DNA from: Enterobacter ludwigii
GTDB lineage: Bacteria > Pseudomonadota > Gammaproteobacteria > Enterobacterales > Enterobacteriaceae
Direction of reading: 5' to 3'
Length of the DNA: 64,000 nucleotides
Assembly: GCF_001750725.1 (NCBI RefSeq)
Contig: NZ_CP017279.1
Span: 1,178,001-1,242,000 of the forward strand
The notes under the pieces were generated by a model that was given only the letters and a program-made list of their open reading frames with translations, was not told where the DNA came from and made no database searches. The position numbers were made by a program, and so were the translations under genes. Each line of letters opens with the position of its first letter. Position 1 is the stretch's first letter. Below, piece after piece: positions 18,250 through 25,605 of this stretch.

Positions 18250-18459
18250 ATGGGTAATGTGACCAAAGACGAAGCGCTGTATCAGGAGATGTGTCGGGTG
18301 GTCGGGAAGGTCGTTCTGGAGATGCGTGATTTGGGGCAGGAGCCGAAGCATATTGTCATTGCGGGGGTGCTGCGTACGGCGCTGGCGAACCAGCGCGTAA
18401 AACGTAGCGAGTTAACCACCCAGGCGATGGAAACCGTGGTCAAAGCGCTGGCCGGTTGA
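18250..18459 (+). CDS. fumD: FumD (YdhZ), small fumarase D
   Basis: 69 residues starting MGNVTKDEALYQ, the E. coli YdhZ length, with the near-identical core 'VVGKVVLEMRDLGQEPKHIV'. Two earlier in-frame starts (18241 GTG, 18244 ATG) sit too close to the GGAG site; ATG at 18250 has the right spacing. E. coli YdhZ has been reported as fumarase D by activity screening, although such a small protein is an unusual hydratase and is unrelated to FumA/B/C. In E. coli it also lies near pykF. Its last 20 bp overlap the 3' end of the convergent ABC permease gene. Confidence 0.85.
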   Translation: MGNVTKDEALYQEMCRVVGKVVLEMRDLGQEPKHIVIAGVLRTALANQRVKRSELTTQAMETVVKALAG

Positions 18460-19126
18460 AGCGCCAGCGTTTCGCAAGCTGCTCAAGGGAGCAGCAGAGC
18501 AGGTAATAGACCACACCCGTAAAGATAAAAATGGCCGCCGGGTAAATTTGCACCCGGTTGTTCACCTGGCCGGCCACCGTGGTGAGCTCAGGGACATTCA
18601 CAATAAACGCCAGCGACGTATCCTTCAGCAGGCTGATAAAAATCCCCACCAGTGACGGCAGAATATTGCGCAGCGCCTGCGGCAGCAGCACGCGCGACAG
18701 CGTTTGCCGGGTACTGAAACCCTGAGACAGGGCGGCCTCGTACTGCCCTGACGGTAAGGCGCTGAGTCCGGCCAGTACTGAATGCATAACCGAAGCCGTG
18801 GTAAACCAGGCCAGGGCCAGCGTGACAGTGAGCGCCCCCGGGAGATCGCCGCCGGTGATGAGCGGCAGCAGATACCACATCCAGAAAATCACAAAGATTA
18901 ACGGGATCCCGCGAATTAACTCCGCCCATACAAAGAGCGCCTTGCGCACAAGCCCCGTAAAACGCCAGGCCAGGCACGCGAGAGCAATTCCACCGGGCAG
19001 GGCGAGAGCCGCCGCGCCCAGCGCCATCAGCAACGAGAGCAAGACCCCGCCAGGCTCACCGACTGCTGCACGTCCCCAGAGCAGGTAATCCAGGTTATCG
19101 GTAATGACATTAAGTCCGGCAAGCAT
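18440..19126 (-). CDS. Polar amino-acid ABC transporter permease (GltK/HisM type)
   Basis: 228 residues with about five hydrophobic segments and the EAA loop 'QYEAALSQGFSTRQTLSRVLLPQALRNILPSL', which couples to the ATPase. Second permease of a heterodimeric His/Glu/Gln-type importer. Its start lies within the last 17 bp of the other permease gene, so translation is coupled. The 3' end overlaps fumD (opposite strand) by 20 bp, leaving no room for a terminator between them. The substrate cannot be read from sequence. Confidence 0.88.
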   Translation of the reverse strand: MLAGLNVITDNLDYLLWGRAAVGEPGGVLLSLLMALGAAALALPGGIALACLAWRFTGLVRKALFVWAELIRGIPLIFVIFWMWYLLPLITGGDLPGALTVTLALAWFTTASVMHSVLAGLSALPSGQYEAALSQGFSTRQTLSRVLLPQALRNILPSLVGIFISLLKDTSLAFIVNVPELTTVAGQVNNRVQIYPAAIFIFTGVVYYLLCCSLEQLAKRWRFNRPAL

Positions 19127-19856
19127 GGTTTCCCCTCCCTGAGATTGGGCCGAGGCGCACCAGCACCGCCCCCATCAGCATACCGGTAAGCAGGTACAGG
19201 ACGGTGCCGACGGTAAACGCCTCCAGCGCATGGGCGTTGTAGCTTTCAATCTGTCTCACCTGATAGGTCAGTTCGGCAAAGCCAATGCCGCTGGCGAGCG
19301 ATGAGAGTTTCATCAGATTGAGATACTGCCCGACAACGGGTTGCCAGGCGTTGGCCAGCCCTTGCGGCAGAAGGATGTAACGAAACAAGCGCCACGCGGA
19401 AAATCCTTGTGCGAGCGCCGCTTCCCGTTGCCCGGCAGGGACTGAACGTAGTCCCGATGCCACTTCCTCAATCAAGAAAGCCGAGGTGAATACGCCTAAC
19501 CCCCATGCAGAGCATAAAAACTCGGGGGTAAACCACCAGACGTCACCGGGCAAAACGGACCAGCGGTGATCCGCATTCACGGCATCCCGGAACGCCTGTG
19601 GTAACCCGTTCCAGGCGGCAAAATACCAGAACAGCAGCTGCACCAGCAGCGGCGTATTGCGAAACAGCGACACCCAGCTACTGACGACCGCGTTCCCGAC
19701 ACGTCCACCCGTCAGGCGAAGAAGCAGAAAAAGCAGCGCGAGCAGGGTTGCCAGCAGCATCCCCGCGAGCGTCACCCACAGGGTGGTGAGAAATCCGGAT
19801 ACGATCCACTGCAGGGGCTGTCCGGTCAGCACGCCCTGCCAGTCAAGTGCGGGCAT
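19110..19856 (-). CDS. Polar amino-acid ABC transporter permease (GltJ/HisQ type)
   Basis: 248 residues with hydrophobic segments near 20-48, 60-80, 110-130 and 205-235, and the EAA loop 'QREAALAQGFSAWRLFRYILLPQGLANAWQPV'. It forms the membrane channel with the permease encoded directly downstream (17-bp overlap). Its start and the upstream ATPase stop share a base (TAATG). It resembles GltJ by length and the large periplasmic loop (residues 85-110). Confidence 0.88.
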   Translation of the reverse strand: MPALDWQGVLTGQPLQWIVSGFLTTLWVTLAGMLLATLLALLFLLLRLTGGRVGNAVVSSWVSLFRNTPLLVQLLFWYFAAWNGLPQAFRDAVNADHRWSVLPGDVWWFTPEFLCSAWGLGVFTSAFLIEEVASGLRSVPAGQREAALAQGFSAWRLFRYILLPQGLANAWQPVVGQYLNLMKLSSLASGIGFAELTYQVRQIESYNAHALEAFTVGTVLYLLTGMLMGAVLVRLGPISGRGNHACRT

Positions 19857-20671
19857 TAGAGATGCTCCTGATGCAGCGGGTTCAGGACTTTTTGCAGGAA
19901 TCGCTGAGCGCGTGGGTGCGACGGTTGCCTGAAAAATTGCTCCGGTGGCGCGGTTTCAAGAACGTGCCCGGCGTCGATAAACACAATCCGGTCGGCAATT
20001 TCCCGGGCAAATTGCATCTCATGCGTCACCACAATCATGGTGATCCCGCTGTGCGCAAGCGCCTTCATCACGAACAGCACTTCGCCAATCATCTCCGGGT
20101 CAAGCGCGGAGGTTGGCTCATCGAACAGAATGATTTGCGGTGAAGAGGCCAGCGCGCGGGCAATCGCCACGCGCTGTTGCTGACCGCCGGAAAGTTCGGC
20201 AGGGAAATGGTGTGCTTTTTCCAGCATCCCCACTTTTTCCAGCAGTGCCAGCGCCCGCGCCTGAGCTGGCTGGGCCTTCCAGCCGTGAACATGCTCCAGC
20301 GCCAGCGTGATGTTTTGACTGGCGGTGAGGTGGGCGTAAAGATTGAACTGCTGAAACACAAACCCGACGCGGCTGCGCAACTGACGCAGCGCGGTACCGG
20401 AGAGCCGTCCGGTGGGCTTGTTATCGATCAGGATCTCGCCACCGCTCAGGGTTTCAAGCTGATTGATAAGCCGGATCAGGGTGGATTTACCGGAACCCGA
20501 AGGCCCGAGAATGGCCACCACTTCACCTGGCGTGATGGTGAGGTTAATGCCCTTTAAGACCTGATGGTTACCGTAATGTTTCTGCACATCGCGAAACTCG
20601 ACGCTGGCGTGTTCCAGATGTGAAAAATCCGCGGCACCGGCCGCGGAGTGTGAAAAAAGCGCTGAGAGCAT
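19856..20671 (-). CDS. Polar amino-acid ABC transporter ATPase (GlnQ/GltL type)
   Basis: 271 residues. Walker A 'GPSGSGKST' at about 56-64, Q-loop 'FVFQQFNLYAH', signature 'LSGGQQQRVAIARAL', Walker B 'IILFDEPTSALDPE', switch His in 'VVTHEMQFA'. An N-terminal extension of about 22 residues before 'VEFRDVQKHYG' is longer than in GlnQ. It powers the two permeases encoded downstream. It starts 1 bp after the binding-protein stop. Confidence 0.9.
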   Translation of the reverse strand: MLSALFSHSAAGAADFSHLEHASVEFRDVQKHYGNHQVLKGINLTITPGEVVAILGPSGSGKSTLIRLINQLETLSGGEILIDNKPTGRLSGTALRQLRSRVGFVFQQFNLYAHLTASQNITLALEHVHGWKAQPAQARALALLEKVGMLEKAHHFPAELSGGQQQRVAIARALASSPQIILFDEPTSALDPEMIGEVLFVMKALAHSGITMIVVTHEMQFAREIADRIVFIDAGHVLETAPPEQFFRQPSHPRAQRFLQKVLNPLHQEHL

Positions 20672-20672
20672 A

Positions 20673-21503
20673 TTACTGAGCTTCTATTTTAAAGGCACGA
20701 GGCTGTGGGGATGGGGTATCCGGACCGAACCAGACGTCATAGATTTTTGCCGCCTGACCGTTCTTCTCAAGGTTAACAAGCTCGTCGTTGACGGCTTTCA
20801 GCAGTGCGGTTTCGCCTTTTTTTACCCCCACGCCAATCTCTTCTTTGCTGAGCAGATCGGGCAGGATTTTGAAGTTCGCCTTGTCCGGCGCCTGCGCCAG
20901 CAGACCGGCCAGAATCGTACTGTCCTGAGTGATAGCCTGCACGTTACCGTTGCGCAGGGCCGTCAGCGCCAGCGGAATATCGTCATAAGAGAGCACGCGG
21001 GCGTGCGGGAAACGCTGGTGCAGCGCCTGTTCACCCGTTGTGCCTTTTACCGCGCCAATGCGCGCCCGGCTATAGGCATCAAGCGTATCGGCAGCTTTTA
21101 CCGGTACCAGGAACTGTTGGCCGGTCACGAAATAGGGAAGGGAGAAATCAACCACCTGCGCCCGTTCCGGGGTAATGGTGATATCTGCCACAATCAAATC
21201 TGCCTTACCGGACTGCAGGAGGGGAATGCGGTTAGCCGGGTTGGTGGCGACCAGTTCAAGCTTCACGCCAAGTGCACTGGCAAGCGCTCTGGCGAAATCG
21301 ACGTCGTAGCCGATAATCTCATGGGTCTTTGCATCGATGGAGCCAAACGGCGGATTGGCATCAAAGGTGGCAACTTTGACCACGCCTGCGGCTTTAATAT
21401 CCGCCAGTTGATCGGCCTGCACCTGCATTGAGAACAGACCGCCTGCCGCCAGTAAGCCCAGCACCAGTGTCCTTTTTTTAAACCCTTTCGTGTTTGCTGC
21501 CAT
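20673..21503 (-). CDS. Periplasmic amino-acid binding protein (SBP family 3)
   Basis: 276 residues with a signal peptide (1-30, cleavage near VQA-D) and a family-3 solute-binding fold: 'FDANPPFGSID', 'IGYDVDFARALASALGVKLELV', 'LLQSGKADLIVADITITPERA'. The Arg and Asp in these motifs contact the amino-acid carboxyl and amino groups in family members. It is the first gene of a four-gene importer operon. The predicted ligand is a polar amino acid (His, Glu, Gln or Arg class) and cannot be narrowed. About 245 bp of promoter region separates it from the divergent small ORFs at 21748. Confidence 0.9.
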   Translation of the reverse strand: MAANTKGFKKRTLVLGLLAAGGLFSMQVQADQLADIKAAGVVKVATFDANPPFGSIDAKTHEIIGYDVDFARALASALGVKLELVATNPANRIPLLQSGKADLIVADITITPERAQVVDFSLPYFVTGQQFLVPVKAADTLDAYSRARIGAVKGTTGEQALHQRFPHARVLSYDDIPLALTALRNGNVQAITQDSTILAGLLAQAPDKANFKILPDLLSKEEIGVGVKKGETALLKAVNDELVNLEKNGQAAKIYDVWFGPDTPSPQPRAFKIEAQ

Positions 21504-21747
21504 AGTGATTGTTCATCCCGTTGTTTTTGTTTTACCCCGTTACGCTCCCATAAGCGAAAGCTCTCGCCAAATAAGAAATCGTTCTTTGCTATAAGCAAAA
21601 AAGCATTAGTGAACAAGGTGTTAATGGCGAGTAAAAGAATGGAGGGCTATTTGCAAATCCTGCACATCGACAGTGGATTTTGGTATTTCCCCTGTGCGGG
21701 TGTTGGGTGTTTAACTTAGGGCAAGTGAAGCGAAAGGGGGAAAGACG

Positions 21748-21915
21748 ATGAAAAAGTGGATAAACACGTTACGGCGGTTTTTTGCGACCCGACCAGCGAA
21801 TGCGGAGAACAGCGCGCAACGTGTTCTTGAGTCCGTACTGCCTGTCGCCAGCCTGTATGGCGTGGACGTTGCCAACATTGATCCGGAGTGGTTCCATGAT
21901 AAAACGTCACGCTGA
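21748..21915 (+). CDS. Small hypothetical protein, 55 residues
   Basis: ATG at 21748 sits behind a strong AAGGGGGAAAG ribosome site. The product has a basic amphipathic N-terminus ('MKKWINTLRRFFATRP'), then 'QRVLESVLPVASLYGVDVANIDPEWFHD'. No signal peptide cleavage site or known motif is recognised. It overlaps by 20 bp a second tiny ORF in another frame and precedes the two-component system by 108 bp. Coding status rests on the ribosome site and codon usage; I do not recognise the family. Confidence 0.55.
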   Translation: MKKWINTLRRFFATRPANAENSAQRVLESVLPVASLYGVDVANIDPEWFHDKTSR

Positions 21916-21970
21916 ACTGCGCCGCACGCGCGAAATGTACTGGAATGAACTGTGCGAAATTTTGTTCTGA
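21896..21970 (+). CDS. Very small ORF, 24 residues, overlapping the 55-residue ORF
   Basis: ATG at 21896 has GGAG seven bases upstream, inside the preceding ORF. It encodes MIKRHAELRRTREMYWNELC followed by EILF, an amphipathic basic helix. The 20-bp overlap suggests translational coupling. It ends 52 bp before the sensor-kinase gene. Unrecognised, and may be a leader peptide or chance. Confidence 0.35.
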   Translation: MIKRHAELRRTREMYWNELCEILF

Positions 21971-22022
21971 CAACGGTTAACTGCTAATGTCGGCAGGATG
22001 AATCTCCTGACCCGTTAACGGA

Positions 22023-23348
22023 ATGAATAACACTCTTTTCAGGCGCACGGTTATTGTCTGGCTGCTGGTGTGCCTCATCAGCGGCGTTTTGCTCTATGCC
22101 GAACAGATCCGCCGCCAGTTCTGGGAACGCGATCGTGAGTTTTCGACACGCTATTCCACCCTTAGCGCCGTACTGACGCAAAATGAATCTGTTTTGCCGT
22201 TACTCAACGGCGAGGAAGACCTCGCGGCCCTGCGCAAAAAATTCCCGCACATCCTCGCCCTTGAGAAAACCTCAGGCCGTGCGCTGAACGCCGCCCGTGT
22301 GGAATCGACCCGCGATTGTCAGTACTGGCTGTATAACCCCTGGCGTCAGATCCGCGTACTTATCGATCTTGCGCCGCTGCTCCGCACCCAACATACCTTT
22401 GACGCACTTGCCATTCGCTTCAATGACGCAGATAACGCGCCCCCTGCCGGGGCTTTCTGGCACTGGCAGCGGACCTTCACGCAACCCACACAACCTTTTA
22501 CCCTTATGGCCACGGCAAAGCCGCACTGGCTGGCCGTCTCCTGGTGGGTATATCCGTTCCTGTTCTTCGGCTGGGCAGTGCTTATCGCCGCGGCCAGCCT
22601 GCTGCTCTGGCAACGGCGGCAGCGCCAGCACGCCGAACAGCGCGCACACTATTACCAGCATGCAAGGCTCAACACCCTGGGAGAGATCACCGCTGGGATC
22701 GTGCATGAGATTAACCAGCCGCTGACTGCCGTTCAGACCTGGATCCAGGGTGCTCAGCGTCAGCAACAGCAGGCGAATCCGCAGGCCGTATCGCAGGCGC
22801 TGGCTGCCGCGCTGGTACAAACCCAGCGTATCAGCGCGCTCTTAACCCGCTTTCGCGAACATGTGGTTCAGGAAAAAGTCACCTTGCGCGACATCGACCT
22901 GAAACCGTGCTGGCAGCAGGTGGTCGATCTCCTTGAACATGAACGCCGCTCTGAGCATATCGCGGTAAGCCATGCGTTCGCGGCAGGTGCCACGCGGGTT
23001 CTGGCAGACCGACTCTGGCTTGAACAGGTGCTGCATAATCTGCTCAGTAATGCCATTCAGGCCCAGCAAGAGTGCGCGCAAGGGTGGGTGAAAATAACCA
23101 GCGAGAAACGGGAAAACTGGATTTATATCACCCTCACCGATGGCGGACCTGGCTTTAGCCCGGAGGCCTTGCAGAACGCCTTTATGCCGTTTTACAGCGG
23201 ACGGACGGAAGGAATTGGGCTGGGAATGACGTTAACGGAGTCGTTGATGACGCGCATGAATGGATCAATCACGCTGGGCAATGCGCCCCAGGGCGGGGCG
23301 CAGGTCCGGTTACAACTGGCGAGTGGAGAGTTAAATACGCGTGGATAA
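22023..23348 (+). CDS. Membrane sensor histidine kinase of a FixJ-type two-component system
   Basis: 441 residues. Transmembrane segment about 9-25, periplasmic domain about 26-170 with a single Cys99 in 'RDCQYW', second transmembrane segment about 172-196, HisKA domain with phosphoacceptor His228 in 'GIVHEINQPL' (the HEINQPL variant), and HATPase motifs 'NLLSNAIQA', 'DGGPGF', 'GIGLGMTL'. The periplasmic domain is not recognised. It phosphorylates the response regulator encoded next (8-bp overlap). ATG is nearly adjacent to a weak ACGGA site, and a 6-codon mini-ORF MNLLTR ends 4 bp upstream. A secreted HbpS/GlcG-family protein is encoded just after the regulator and may be its sensor partner. 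Confidence 0.9.
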   Translation: MNNTLFRRTVIVWLLVCLISGVLLYAEQIRRQFWERDREFSTRYSTLSAVLTQNESVLPLLNGEEDLAALRKKFPHILALEKTSGRALNAARVESTRDCQYWLYNPWRQIRVLIDLAPLLRTQHTFDALAIRFNDADNAPPAGAFWHWQRTFTQPTQPFTLMATAKPHWLAVSWWVYPFLFFGWAVLIAAASLLLWQRRQRQHAEQRAHYYQHARLNTLGEITAGIVHEINQPLTAVQTWIQGAQRQQQQANPQAVSQALAAALVQTQRISALLTRFREHVVQEKVTLRDIDLKPCWQQVVDLLEHERRSEHIAVSHAFAAGATRVLADRLWLEQVLHNLLSNAIQAQQECAQGWVKITSEKRENWIYITLTDGGPGFSPEALQNAFMPFYSGRTEGIGLGMTLTESLMTRMNGSITLGNAPQGGAQVRLQLASGELNTRG

Positions 23349-23952
23349 CACAGTCTGGCTGATTGATGACGATGAATCCATCCGTGAGTCGCTGGCCTTC
23401 TTACTCTCGGGAATGGGCTGGCAGGTCAATGGGTTTGAAAGCGTGGACGCGTTTACTTCAGCGCACGGTGGGCGCGCGGCGCTCGTCGGCTGTCTGCTGC
23501 TGGATATGCGCATGCCGGGAAAAGGCGGGCTGACCTGGCTGGAGGAGGGCAAATGGCCCTGGCCGCTGCTGCCGGTTATCGTCATGACCGGACACGGTAC
23601 CGTTGATGCCTGCCGCCGCGCCTTTCGCAATGGCGTCTTTGAGTTTTTCACCAAGCCGCTGGATGCCGATAAGCTCATTGAAACGGTGGGGCTCGCCTTC
23701 GAAGAGAGCCAGAGACGACTGACCCGCTGGCAGGAAACGTCGCGGATTAAAGCGCGTTTCGAACAACTGACGGCACGTGAGCACGAGGTGCTGGCGGTGC
23801 TGATGGAAGGACGCAGCAATAAAGAGGTGGCCCTGCAGTTGAACCTCTCGCCCAGAACGGTTGAAGCGCACCGGGCCGCGGCGTTCGCCAAGCTTGGCGT
23901 GACCAGCCTGGTGCAGGCAATCCGCGATTACGACAAATTACAATCCGTATAA
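23341..23952 (+). CDS. FixJ/NarL-type response regulator
   Basis: 203 residues from a GTG start at 23341 that overlaps the kinase stop by 8 bp, with GGAGAG upstream. The receiver domain (1-120) has the acidic pocket Asp9-Asp11, phosphoacceptor Asp55 in 'LLLDMRMPG', Thr in 'VIVMTGHGT' and Lys in 'EFFTKPLDADK'. A LuxR-type HTH follows at about 138-195 ('LTAREHEVLAVLMEGRSNKEVALQLNLSPRTVEAHR' region, given here by ends). It binds DNA after phosphorylation by the upstream kinase; the HbpS-like gene 89 bp downstream is a candidate target. Confidence 0.92.
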   Translation: MDNTVWLIDDDESIRESLAFLLSGMGWQVNGFESVDAFTSAHGGRAALVGCLLLDMRMPGKGGLTWLEEGKWPWPLLPVIVMTGHGTVDACRRAFRNGVFEFFTKPLDADKLIETVGLAFEESQRRLTRWQETSRIKARFEQLTAREHEVLAVLMEGRSNKEVALQLNLSPRTVEAHRAAAFAKLGVTSLVQAIRDYDKLQSV

Positions 23953-24041
23953 CTACCAGGATAATTGCGTAATCAACCGAATTACGCTTCATCGCGCGTC
24001 TGAGTACGATCGAACGGTATTCAATCATTCGAGGACATGCG

Positions 24042-24521
24042 ATGAAAAAAGTAATGATGGCAGCCGCGCTTGTCGCCGGTAGCGTAAGCCTGACGGCACA
24101 GGCCGACGCATTGAACCAGAAAAATCTCTCCCTGGCGCAGGCCAACGCGCTGGCGACCTCCGCCATTCAGGCCTGCGTAGCGAAAAACTACCAGGTGACG
24201 GTCACCGTGGTGGACCGCGCCGGTGTGGTCAAAGCGGTGCAGCGTACAGACAATGCCGGGCCACACACGGTAAAAGCCAGCGAAATGAAAGCCTATACCG
24301 CGCTGAGTGCAAAAAATGCGTCAGGCAAGGTTATGGACGCCGCGCAGAGCAATGCCGGCGCACAAAACATGCGTGATATTCCGGGCTTCCTGCTGCTGGC
24401 CGGTGGTCTGCCGGTGAAAGAGGGGGATGAGGTGATCGGCGCAATAGGGATCGGCGGTGCGCCGGGTGGTCATCTGGATGAAGCGTGCGCGCAGGCGGCG
24501 ATTGACGGGCTGAAGAAATAA
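24042..24521 (+). CDS. Secreted HbpS/GlcG-family (haem-degrading-like fold) protein
   Basis: 159 residues with a clear signal peptide (1-21, TAQA-DA). The mature part is a single PF03928-type domain: 'LSLAQANALATSAIQAC', 'VTVTVVDRAGVVKAVQRTDNAGPHT', 'GGLPVKEGDEVIGAIGIGGAPGGHLDEACA'. Family members include GlcG, PduO C-terminal domains and Streptomyces HbpS, which binds haem and modulates the SenS-SenR two-component system. Here a two-component system lies immediately upstream. A function in haem or redox sensing is inference from family and context. Two cysteines (in 'QACVAK' and 'DEACAQ') are present in the mature protein. An intrinsic terminator follows. Confidence 0.85.
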   Translation: MKKVMMAAALVAGSVSLTAQADALNQKNLSLAQANALATSAIQACVAKNYQVTVTVVDRAGVVKAVQRTDNAGPHTVKASEMKAYTALSAKNASGKVMDAAQSNAGAQNMRDIPGFLLLAGGLPVKEGDEVIGAIGIGGAPGGHLDEACAQAAIDGLKK

Positions 24522-24527
24522 TATAAA

Positions 24528-24552
24528 AAAGCACCGGGTTTTCCGGTGCTTT
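24528..24552. terminator. Bidirectional terminator between the HbpS-like gene and the small acidic gene
   Basis: AAAGCACCGG (24528-24537) pairs with CCGGTGCTTT (24543-24552) across a 5-base loop, with A- and T-rich flanks. It serves two convergent genes. Confidence 0.85.
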
Positions 24553-24556
24553 ATCA

Positions 24557-24697
24557 TCAGATCTTGCAGGCATCACCGCAGTCGTCATCGGCGATAATCG
24601 ACTGCGCTTTTTTATCAGCGTCGTCGAGACGTTCCGCGTTACGCTCTTCAGCTTCATCCAGCCCGTTAAAGACCAAGTTTTCGAGATCAATTTCCAT
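24557..24697 (-). CDS. Small acidic hypothetical protein, 46 residues
   Basis: Starts MEIDLENLVFNGLDEAEERN at 24697 after GCAGGTGCCAT, and ends with a cysteine pair in 'DDDCGDACKI'. Strongly acidic and predicted helical for residues 10-35. The ribosome site AGGTG fits; a longer in-frame reading has no good site. The gene is bounded by a terminator on its 3' side and divergent from the MBL-fold gene. I believe it is a conserved enterobacterial small protein but cannot name it or its role. Confidence 0.65.
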   Translation of the reverse strand: MEIDLENLVFNGLDEAEERNAERLDDADKKAQSIIADDDCGDACKI

Positions 24698-24822
24698 ATG
24701 GCACCTGCTTTGTTCGGTTTTTGATACTGGCACAGTATAGGGCAAAAAGAGCCGGCAATGTACCGCGCAGCACATAACGATAATCCCTGCCATACTCAGT
24801 GCTTTATCGCTGAGGAGAGCTC

Positions 24823-25605
24823 ATGATTACACTGTGTAAAACCTGCGGTACCTCTTATGACGCAACGCCGGCGCGATGCCCTGTGTGCGAGGATGAACGC
24901 CAGTATGTTCCGGCCAGCGGCCAGGCGTGGAGTGATTTTGCGACGGTGACGGCCACACACAGCAATAAATGGCAGCAGCTTGAGCCGCAGCTGCTCAGTA
25001 TCAAAACGGTGCCCGCTTTTGCCATCAACCAGCGCGTGCTGCTTCTGCGTACCCCCCACGGCAATATCCTTTGGGATTGCATTGCGAATCTCGACCCGGC
25101 AACCAGAACCATCATCACGGCGCTCGGCGGCATCAGCGCGATCGCGATTTCACATCCTCACTACTACACCACAATGCAGGAGTGGGCCGGGGCTTTCGAT
25201 GCGCCGGTTTACCTGCACGCGAACGATCGCGAGTGGGTTATGCGCGACAGCCCGATGCTCCACTTCTGGCAGGGCGATACGCTGGACATTTTCCCCGCGG
25301 TAACGTTATTACGCCTCGGAGGACATTTCGCTGGCGGAACGGTGCTGCACTGGCAGGAGGGTGATGGTGTCTTACTGGCAGGTGATATTCTACAGGTCAC
25401 GCCGGGCAAAGATGCCGTCTCGTTTATGTGGAGCTATCCGAATATGCTGCCGTTGCCCGCCCGCAGCGTCGAAGACGTGACCGGGCGGCTGGTGGGGAAA
25501 AAATTCGCTCGCCTGTACGGCGCTTTTGAAGGGCAAAATATCCTGGCGAATGCGGATGAGATTGTGCAGCGGTCGGGCCAGAAATATATTGCTTGTCTGA
25601 AGTAA
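24823..25605 (+). CDS. Metallo-beta-lactamase-fold protein with N-terminal zinc ribbon
   Basis: 260 residues. Cys5, Cys8, Cys19 and Cys22 form a rubredoxin-like zinc ribbon. The MBL-fold follows (about 55-255): the usual HxHxDH motif reads 'SHPHYYTT' (His111, His113, no Asp-His), with His168 in 'GGHFAGG' and Asp188 in 'LAGDIL'. The second metal site is therefore degraded, so a standard binuclear hydrolase activity is doubtful. No antibiotic-resistance role is suggested. It stands alone, 72 bp before the carbonic anhydrase gene. ATG at 24823 follows GAGGAGAGCTC. Confidence 0.85.
   Translation: MITLCKTCGTSYDATPARCPVCEDERQYVPASGQAWSDFATVTATHSNKWQQLEPQLLSIKTVPAFAINQRVLLLRTPHGNILWDCIANLDPATRTIITALGGISAIAISHPHYYTTMQEWAGAFDAPVYLHANDREWVMRDSPMLHFWQGDTLDIFPAVTLLRLGGHFAGGTVLHWQEGDGVLLAGDILQVTPGKDAVSFMWSYPNMLPLPARSVEDVTGRLVGKKFARLYGAFEGQNILANADEIVQRSGQKYIACLK

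Follow-up and report, generated by a model that had tools for sequence, protein, structure and literature searches.

A histidine kinase, a FixJ-like regulator and an HbpS-like protein as a recurrent gene unit in Enterobacter ludwigii and its relatives

In a 64,000-nucleotide stretch of the Enterobacter ludwigii genome (contig NZ_CP017279.1; hereafter the window), three contiguous genes on the + strand encode a sensor histidine kinase, a FixJ-like response regulator and a protein related to HbpS of Streptomyces (Table 1). These genes are inherited together and keep their order in many genera, and a sequence footprint is conserved between the regulator gene and hbpS. We consider it likely that they form a signalling unit of their own, whose dedicated output is HbpS. 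According to this reading, the kinase would detect a cue outside the inner membrane via a domain of about 145 residues and hand phosphate to the regulator, which, probably as a dimer, would bind TACC-N10-SGTA just upstream of the hbpS promoter and turn hbpS on. HbpS would be exported via Sec, probably held by a disulfide between C45 and C149, and, as a periplasmic protein of the HbpS/PduO/EfgA fold, would bind or scavenge a ligand, while an outer-membrane beta-barrel gene that stands behind hbpS in many relatives would be co-expressed. The two-component system would then be of orthodox design and have an HbpS-type protein as dedicated output, which possibly acts as a feedback sensor as well; whether the kinase responds to haem, redox or another cue is a guess.

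Joint inheritance and conserved order of the three genes

The sequence-only reading of the window had described two tiny overlapping open reading frames (ORFs) followed by contiguous genes for a kinase, a FixJ-like regulator and HbpS. All five ORFs are present on the + strand, with the last three contiguous and the kinase and regulator genes overlapping by 8 bases. Among database relatives of the kinase, the best 120 show 98-100% identity to it, and several of these are named E. ludwigii. For E. coli, a blastn search with the region 21600-24700 gave no match in a collection of 20,395 records.

At the genus level we followed the genes in 60 genomes including that of the window, 36 of them belonging to the genus, with limits of E <1e-100 for the kinase and E <1e-70 for a close HbpS. 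The kinase was found in 20 of the 36 genus genomes and a close HbpS in the same 20, while the other 16 had neither. In one of these 16 (G005; locus L074, 2600-3440) a remnant persists that joins kinase residues 34-89 to HbpS residues 139-158; therefore, this genome once had the unit and lost it through events that included at least one large internal deletion. At the family level, 295 genomes of 154 genera, drawn evenly from the larger group, were searched, the cut-off for a close HbpS (E 1e-37) being placed at a gap in the list. The sensor part of the kinase occurs in 40 genomes (25 genera) and a close HbpS in 39. Both are found in 37 genomes (22 genera), HbpS only in 2, the kinase only in 3 and neither in 253. 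In 36 of the 37, kinase sensor and HbpS share a contig, at a distance of about 2 kb. Two genomes, G274 and G168, hold a regulator (39% identical) together with HbpS without a kinase match.

Gene order was surveyed in 53 loci, chosen for holding the trio, of which 2 lack a sensor match and two (L177 and L292) are one record. The order kinase-regulator-hbpS and the strand were identical in all 51 measured loci, with a spacing from sensor to HbpS of 1916-2020 bases, and the flanks of the unit differ between genera. Since the order recurs among different flanks, the contiguity of the three genes goes beyond chance: chance would hardly bring back the same order in different surroundings, although the genomes are related and so are not independent counts. 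Conservation of the gene order had been proposed as a check on the window, and the linkage was confirmed in named Enterobacter and Lelliottia.

Sensor relatives also occur on 10 plasmid records, 5 of Pantoea, 3 of Duffyella, 1 of Salmonella and 1 of Pseudomonas. In the four plasmid regions viewed, the annotation gives the order ATP-binding protein, response regulator, heme-binding protein, and in that of 'Pseudomonas silvicola' a short LuxR-type gene stands at the place of the response regulator. An outer membrane beta-barrel gene lies behind HbpS in Duffyella gerundensis and in Salmonella enterica subsp. houtenae. The latter locus (L289) is plasmid p24399, a conjugative IncF plasmid that carries the kinase, regulator, HbpS and barrel genes near an RHS-type gene.

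Could the genes be mere neighbours without a common function? In the class at large, 35 of 40 sampled HbpS loci have no two-component genes nearby, several of these loci being cut by contig ends, as such an explanation would have it. However, the order is conserved in many genera with different flanks, the genes are gained or lost jointly, and the intergenic footprint described below accompanies them; we therefore hold adjacency without function to be extremely improbable. The functional link that had been claimed from the window alone is thus supported by co-occurrence, conserved order and the regulator-site footprint.

A conserved site between the regulator gene and hbpS

The footprint, TACC-N10-[GC]GTA[AT]TC-N2-CC[GA]AAT, stands across genera in the intergenic region between regulator and hbpS, and is probably a response-regulator site. 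Its core, TACC-N10-[GC]GTA, occurs in 39 of 59 distinct intergenics between the regulator and the next gene (64 loci), against 0.29 expected from dinucleotide shuffles, but some of the counted sequences, which are related to one another, had served to define the footprint, so that the count is no independent test. The core is present in 21 of 26 intergenics of the Enterobacter group and in 18 of 33 from other genera, and in none of 57 stretches of 150 bases before the kinase. Among plasmid loci outside the definition of the pattern, which are relatives as well, L289 and L290 show the exact core and L291 a one-base variant. L249, from another family of the class, has TACG-N10-CGTA, then CCCCGAAT. 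Where HbpS is missing, a perfect site (L190) or a variant one (L188, L189) lies in front of the barrel gene. In the genome of the window the long pattern has a single perfect match, that before hbpS, followed by 1 match with 2 mismatches and 28 with 3.

The core would likely be read as an inverted repeat by a regulator dimer. Both arms are altered together, from TACC/GGTA to CACC/GGTG, in L177 and L188. As proof of the inverted repeat, these paired changes were weakened when L292 turned out to be the same plasmid as L177, leaving only L177 and L188. Two further candidates were given up: the palindrome GCGTAAT-N7-ATTACGC, dropped as regulator site when the wider comparison brought out TACC-N10-SGTA as the conserved element, and, as another regulator target, a DUF1996 gene whose upstream 140 bases contain no core site in 8 loci. 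On the side of the palindrome, the shorter pattern GTAATCAACCGAATTAC with 3 mismatches gave 16 matches in the genome of the window versus 3 in the reversed control.

Besides the limit on the core count, several observations weigh against a dedicated unit with HbpS as output. In G127, kinase-regulator and HbpS sit on different contigs, and 8 further family genomes carry an HbpS (37-41% identity) without a kinase match. The exact core is absent from 20 of the 59 intergenics; 5 of these are extractions that start inside the site, and most of the others hold a variant or a lone half-site. No recognisable site was seen in the intergenic of L178, a locus without kinase. Support for the symmetry is thin, L174, L195 and L291 being altered in one arm alone. 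Allowing up to 3 mismatches, the long pattern has 30 matches in the genome of the window versus 17 in the reversed control, and further targets are possible. Finally, no terminator-like site on the + strand was found between kinase-regulator and hbpS, so that read-through may occur. The weaker symmetry leaves the probability of the reading unchanged, because the case rests on co-inheritance and the footprint count.

A possible -10 element of hbpS begins 22 bases past the end of the regulator site; TANNNT stands at this place in 26 distinct Enterobacter-group sequences aligned by eye, and the consensus scan did not call it. The only promoter-like match of that scan in the region, 23937-23965 (9 of 12; 1.4 expected by chance), overlaps the regulator site. 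A regulator bound beside the -35 region could plausibly activate hbpS. For kinase and regulator, the candidate promoter listed in Table 1 is absent from the report of the sigma-70 scan; a relaxed form of TTGTTC-N17-TAATGT occurs in 26 of 30 Enterobacter-group loci, counted at any position and without a control, and a similar promoter-like sequence, judged by eye, adjoins the kinase where a DUF1996 gene separates it from the upstream small ORFs. The hairpin behind hbpS was called for the - strand only (7 such sites in the region versus 4.5 expected); it would serve as terminator for the - strand gene and, less surely, for hbpS.

HbpS as output or as co-sensor

All the parts of an orthodox two-component system, namely a HisKA domain with the phospho-accepting His, a HATPase domain, a receiver and a helix-turn-helix (HTH) domain, are found in the kinase and the regulator. 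In the regulator, Response_reg (3.6e-17) and GerE (1e-19) matches from Pfam are accompanied by matches to the curated families FixJ (1.5e-48) and TtrR (4.1e-36), whose scores lie below the equivalog cut-offs (165.1 of 255 and 124.5 of 290 bits, respectively). We take D55, in LLLDMRMPG, to be the expected phospho-acceptor. The kinase combines HisKA (1.1e-7) with HATPase_c (7.6e-22), and H228 of its HEINQPL box is invariant in 23 aligned kinases. Its core matches AtoS (4.9e-40), TtrS (1.2e-35) and FixL (6.5e-29), with 123.1 of the 750 bits set for the TtrS equivalog. Kinase core and regulator thus resemble TtrS-TtrR and FixL-FixJ, far below the curated cut-offs, and the sensor domain here has no well-supported family match.

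By hydropathy, one membrane segment of the kinase starts near residue 9 and a second near residue 178, with a periplasmic domain of about 145 amino acids (aa) between them. This domain had been called unrecognised, and it stays so: kinase residues 1-209 have no Pfam match, in a scan of 21 members of the sensor-domain group the others gave only weak and scattered Pfam matches, and a profile of 21 rows matched no PDB sequence up to E 10. The lone cysteine that had been pointed out in this part is indeed its sole one, C99, which might let the kinase sense redox by itself. However, only the kinase of the window has a cysteine at position 99 among the 23 aligned, nor is there a conserved cysteine column at this position among 12 close kinases. 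The cysteine stands as an observation, then, and its use as a redox handle is most improbable.

HbpS matches PF03928 (5.4e-31; 107.7 bits, cut-off 25) over profile positions 1-127 of 128. Its closeness to the Streptomyces protein, noted from the window alone, holds, S. reticuli HbpS (3fpv) being the best PDB match (5.7e-19). Lower-ranking PDB matches are 4nkp, 2a2l (OrfY), NahX, EfgA and PduO; by sequence, 4nkp, OrfY, NahX, EfgA and the C-terminal domain of PduO share a fold family with this HbpS. A Sec-type signal peptide, MKK-VMMAAALVAGSVSLT-AQA/DA, was assigned by eye; hydropathy averaged over 19 residues did not rise above 1.6 at any peak, and the start of the protein, MKKVMMAAALVAGSVSLTAQADA, contains no twin arginine. 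We surveyed the cysteines in 117 HbpS sequences (123 found, 6 dropped by length), allowing one column of slack. C45 and C149 are both present in 64 of 65 relatives at 50% identity or more, the exception having a gap at 149, and in 26 of 26 at 38-50%; below 38%, both are present in 20 of 26 and neither in 4. The natural reading is that the pair would form a disulfide in periplasmic HbpS. It is not specific to this system, because relatives without two-component genes have C45 and C149 too.

What the unit shares with HbpS-SenS-SenR of Streptomyces is a gene for an exported member of the HbpS family next to the genes of a membrane kinase and a response regulator. SenS itself probably falls into another family of kinases than the present one. 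The cysteine pair is extra in this HbpS, S. reticuli HbpS having no counterpart of either residue in the alignment with 3fpv. The Streptomyces iron motif E78xxE81 is not kept: this HbpS has K78xxE81, within K78-A-S-E81-M-K83, and H144-L-D146-E147, while K83 and the D143 equivalent of the iron motif are retained. Among the 65 close relatives, position 78 is K in 35 and E in 25, and position 81 is E in 32 and R in 26. A His at the place of D141 is noted for Gram-negative HbpS forms in the available part of PMC3754957. From what was available of the respective papers, the gene order is hbpS-senS-senR in Streptomyces (PMC4991794) versus kinase-regulator-hbpS here, and Streptomyces HbpS carries a twin-arginine translocation (Tat) signal (PMC8153426), whereas that of the present HbpS is Sec-like, without twin arginine.

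In the portion available of the 2016 paper PMC4991794, the clustering of hbpS-like genes with senS and senR is described as only actinobacterial. The accessible sections of PMC8153426 and PMC4923194 place EfgA in the cytoplasm, with no conserved gene context, and PduO-C inside the cell, and describe no neighbouring two-component system for either. A Gram-negative HbpS-kinase unit is not described in the parts available of PMC3754957, PMC3184428, PMC8153426, PMC4923194, PMC4991794, PMC5231390 and PMC11043171, and we found no description of one in the literature, whose coverage was incomplete, making this weak evidence of absence.

As an alternative to a role as output, periplasmic HbpS might be an accessory sensor that binds the sensor domain of the kinase and sets its activity as is reported from Streptomyces, or perhaps output and feedback sensor at once. 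In the Streptomyces system HbpS is reported to bind haem as well as the kinase sensor and to change autophosphorylation. For the present unit, such a co-sensor is a possibility of some weight, though clearly the less likely one. A co-sensor is in line with S. reticuli HbpS being the closest solved relative, with the tight linkage and co-inheritance of kinase and HbpS, and with the reported sensors of the family, HbpS and EfgA (PMC4991794 and PMC8153426, each available in part). Sensor and HbpS distances correlate as well (Mantel r 0.89), at a level which the unit's other gene pairs share (0.88-0.98) and which is expected of shared descent alone. However, G178, G206 and G330 carry kinase and regulator without a close HbpS, G178 having a distant one (35%) elsewhere, and their three kinases retain all 8 periplasmic residues (F40, Q53, P75, Y101, W146, W148, Q157 and W169) that are invariant in the 20 other aligned kinases. 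Since these genomes keep the kinase, HbpS is dispensable for its retention, and therefore an output fits better than an obligate part of the sensor. In addition, the ratio of nonsynonymous to synonymous substitution rates (dN/dS) sets the two partners apart: medians are 0.137 for the sensor, the fastest part of the unit, 0.079 for the kinase core, 0.106 for the regulator and 0.042 for HbpS, the slowest, these ratios being rough because dS is near saturation (1.0-1.7; 30 loci, with 5 repeats of the same strain).

Where HbpS is missing behind the regulator (L188-L190), the gene found there is an outer-membrane barrel gene (PF13505). Outside Enterobacter, the gene for this beta-barrel protein of about 230 residues is repeatedly the one that comes next after the unit, and in many loci it stands behind hbpS.

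Neighbouring genes and HbpS relatives beyond the family

The features of the locus are collected in Table 1.

Table 1. Features of the kinase-regulator-hbpS locus, in positions of the window.
Feature	Position	Strand	Remarks
Small ORF 1 (sORF1), 55 aa	21748-21915	+	conserved coding gene; neighbour, outside the two-component module
Small ORF 2 (sORF2), 24 aa	21896-21970	+	20-base overlap with sORF1; neighbour
Candidate own promoter of kinase-regulator, TTGTTC-N17-TAATGT	21962-21990	+	promoter-like sequence
Sensor histidine kinase, HEINQPL box (H228), two membrane segments	22023-23348	+	
FixJ/TtrR-like response regulator, GTG start, receiver and LuxR-type HTH	23341-23952	+	
Probable response-regulator site TACCAGGATAATTGCGTAATCAACCGAAT, in front of hbpS	23954-23982	+	footprint over many genera
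Possible -10 element of hbpS, TACGAT	24005-24010	+	alignment judged by eye
HbpS-like protein with C45 and C149; Sec-type signal peptide (judged by eye)	24042-24521	+	
Terminator-like hairpin, between hbpS and convergent 46-aa ORF	24528-24552	-	10 pairs, tail TTTATATTAT

The two tiny ORFs exist in front of the kinase as had been seen, and their median dN/dS (0.17 for sORF1 in 23 loci, 0.14 for sORF2 in 30) points to selection at the protein level and to genuine coding genes. No Pfam or NCBIfam family matches the pair, and sORF1 has 49 database relatives and no Pfam domain. As leader or small regulators of the system they could be imagined from their place directly in front of the kinase and from their conserved coding character; even in two loci without the adjoining transporter genes (L018, L019) they stay between a fumD-like gene and the kinase. 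However, sORF1, which sORF2 accompanies in the loci where it is found, occurs in 32 of the 36 genomes of the genus, 13 of them among the 16 that lack kinase and HbpS, and is absent from G035, which has the system. It also found no match in 35 fetched loci from other genera of the family, and in 8 fetched loci (6 strains) a DUF1996 gene parts the small ORFs from the kinase. A role in the system is therefore very unlikely, and that part of the sequence-only reading did not stand: sORF1 and sORF2 form a gene pair of the Enterobacter group that adjoins the two-component system and does not depend on it. The intervening gene, present in some Enterobacter, encodes a secreted-looking DUF1996 and CBM96 protein (L032, 4491-5909; also in L034, L037, L082, L083, L088, L093 and L099).

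Genes of an amino-acid-type ATP-binding cassette (ABC) transporter (18440-21503) adjoin the kinase, as they do in several genera (L167, L170, L203, L290), and the binding proteins of L167, L170 and L203 share only 31-32% identity with that of the window. Their position may be due to chance or may hint at the cue. Downstream of hbpS, in a conserved neighbourhood, 24823-25605 joins a rubredoxin-like zinc-ribbon start to a metallo-beta-lactamase-like body, both being weak Pfam matches.

The class-level sample comprised 40 HbpS loci, 20 top and 20 lower rows among the matches listed, which were searched for two-component genes by tblastn with six regulator and kinase queries. The trio order of the FixJ type was seen in L249 and L251 (2 of 40), where the sensor parts no longer match, and OmpR-type genes lie close by in L252 and L280 (2 of 40); L259 has a regulator-like match 2.2 kb away. 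As a general rule, an association of HbpS relatives with two-component genes was rejected, given the 35 loci without any. In L252 and in the order-level loci L078 and L080, which represent three other families, an hbpS-like gene adjoins OmpR-type regulator and kinase genes and is divergent from them, and in L080 it also adjoins two genes that resemble, by eye, metal ABC permeases. The genome of the window holds, outside it, a second exported-looking HbpS (L075, G000:C1:304000-315000), 55% identical over residues 11-158, behind EvgA-like regulator and receiver-Hpt genes and in front of an outer-membrane barrel gene; a similar cluster was found in G022 (L076).

With FixJ-, OmpR- and EvgA-type neighbours found, HbpS-like proteins stand beside at least three types of two-component systems. 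More speculatively, exported HbpS-like proteins may have been recruited repeatedly by such unrelated Gram-negative systems, as output and periplasmic co-sensor in one, with C45-C149 as a possible redox or ligand switch; we put this forward as a tentative idea that is rather doubtful at present.

Among systems of this kind, the three-component redox sensor on record is HbpS-SenS-SenR; the literature covered, part of it available only in portions, reports such clustering only from actinobacteria. With the present unit conserved in 22 of the genera sampled from a single Gram-negative family, and with a regulator site predicted, experiments in organisms that are easy to manipulate genetically can ask whether HbpS is sensor, output or both, and the natural variants without HbpS or without kinase are ready-made controls for them.

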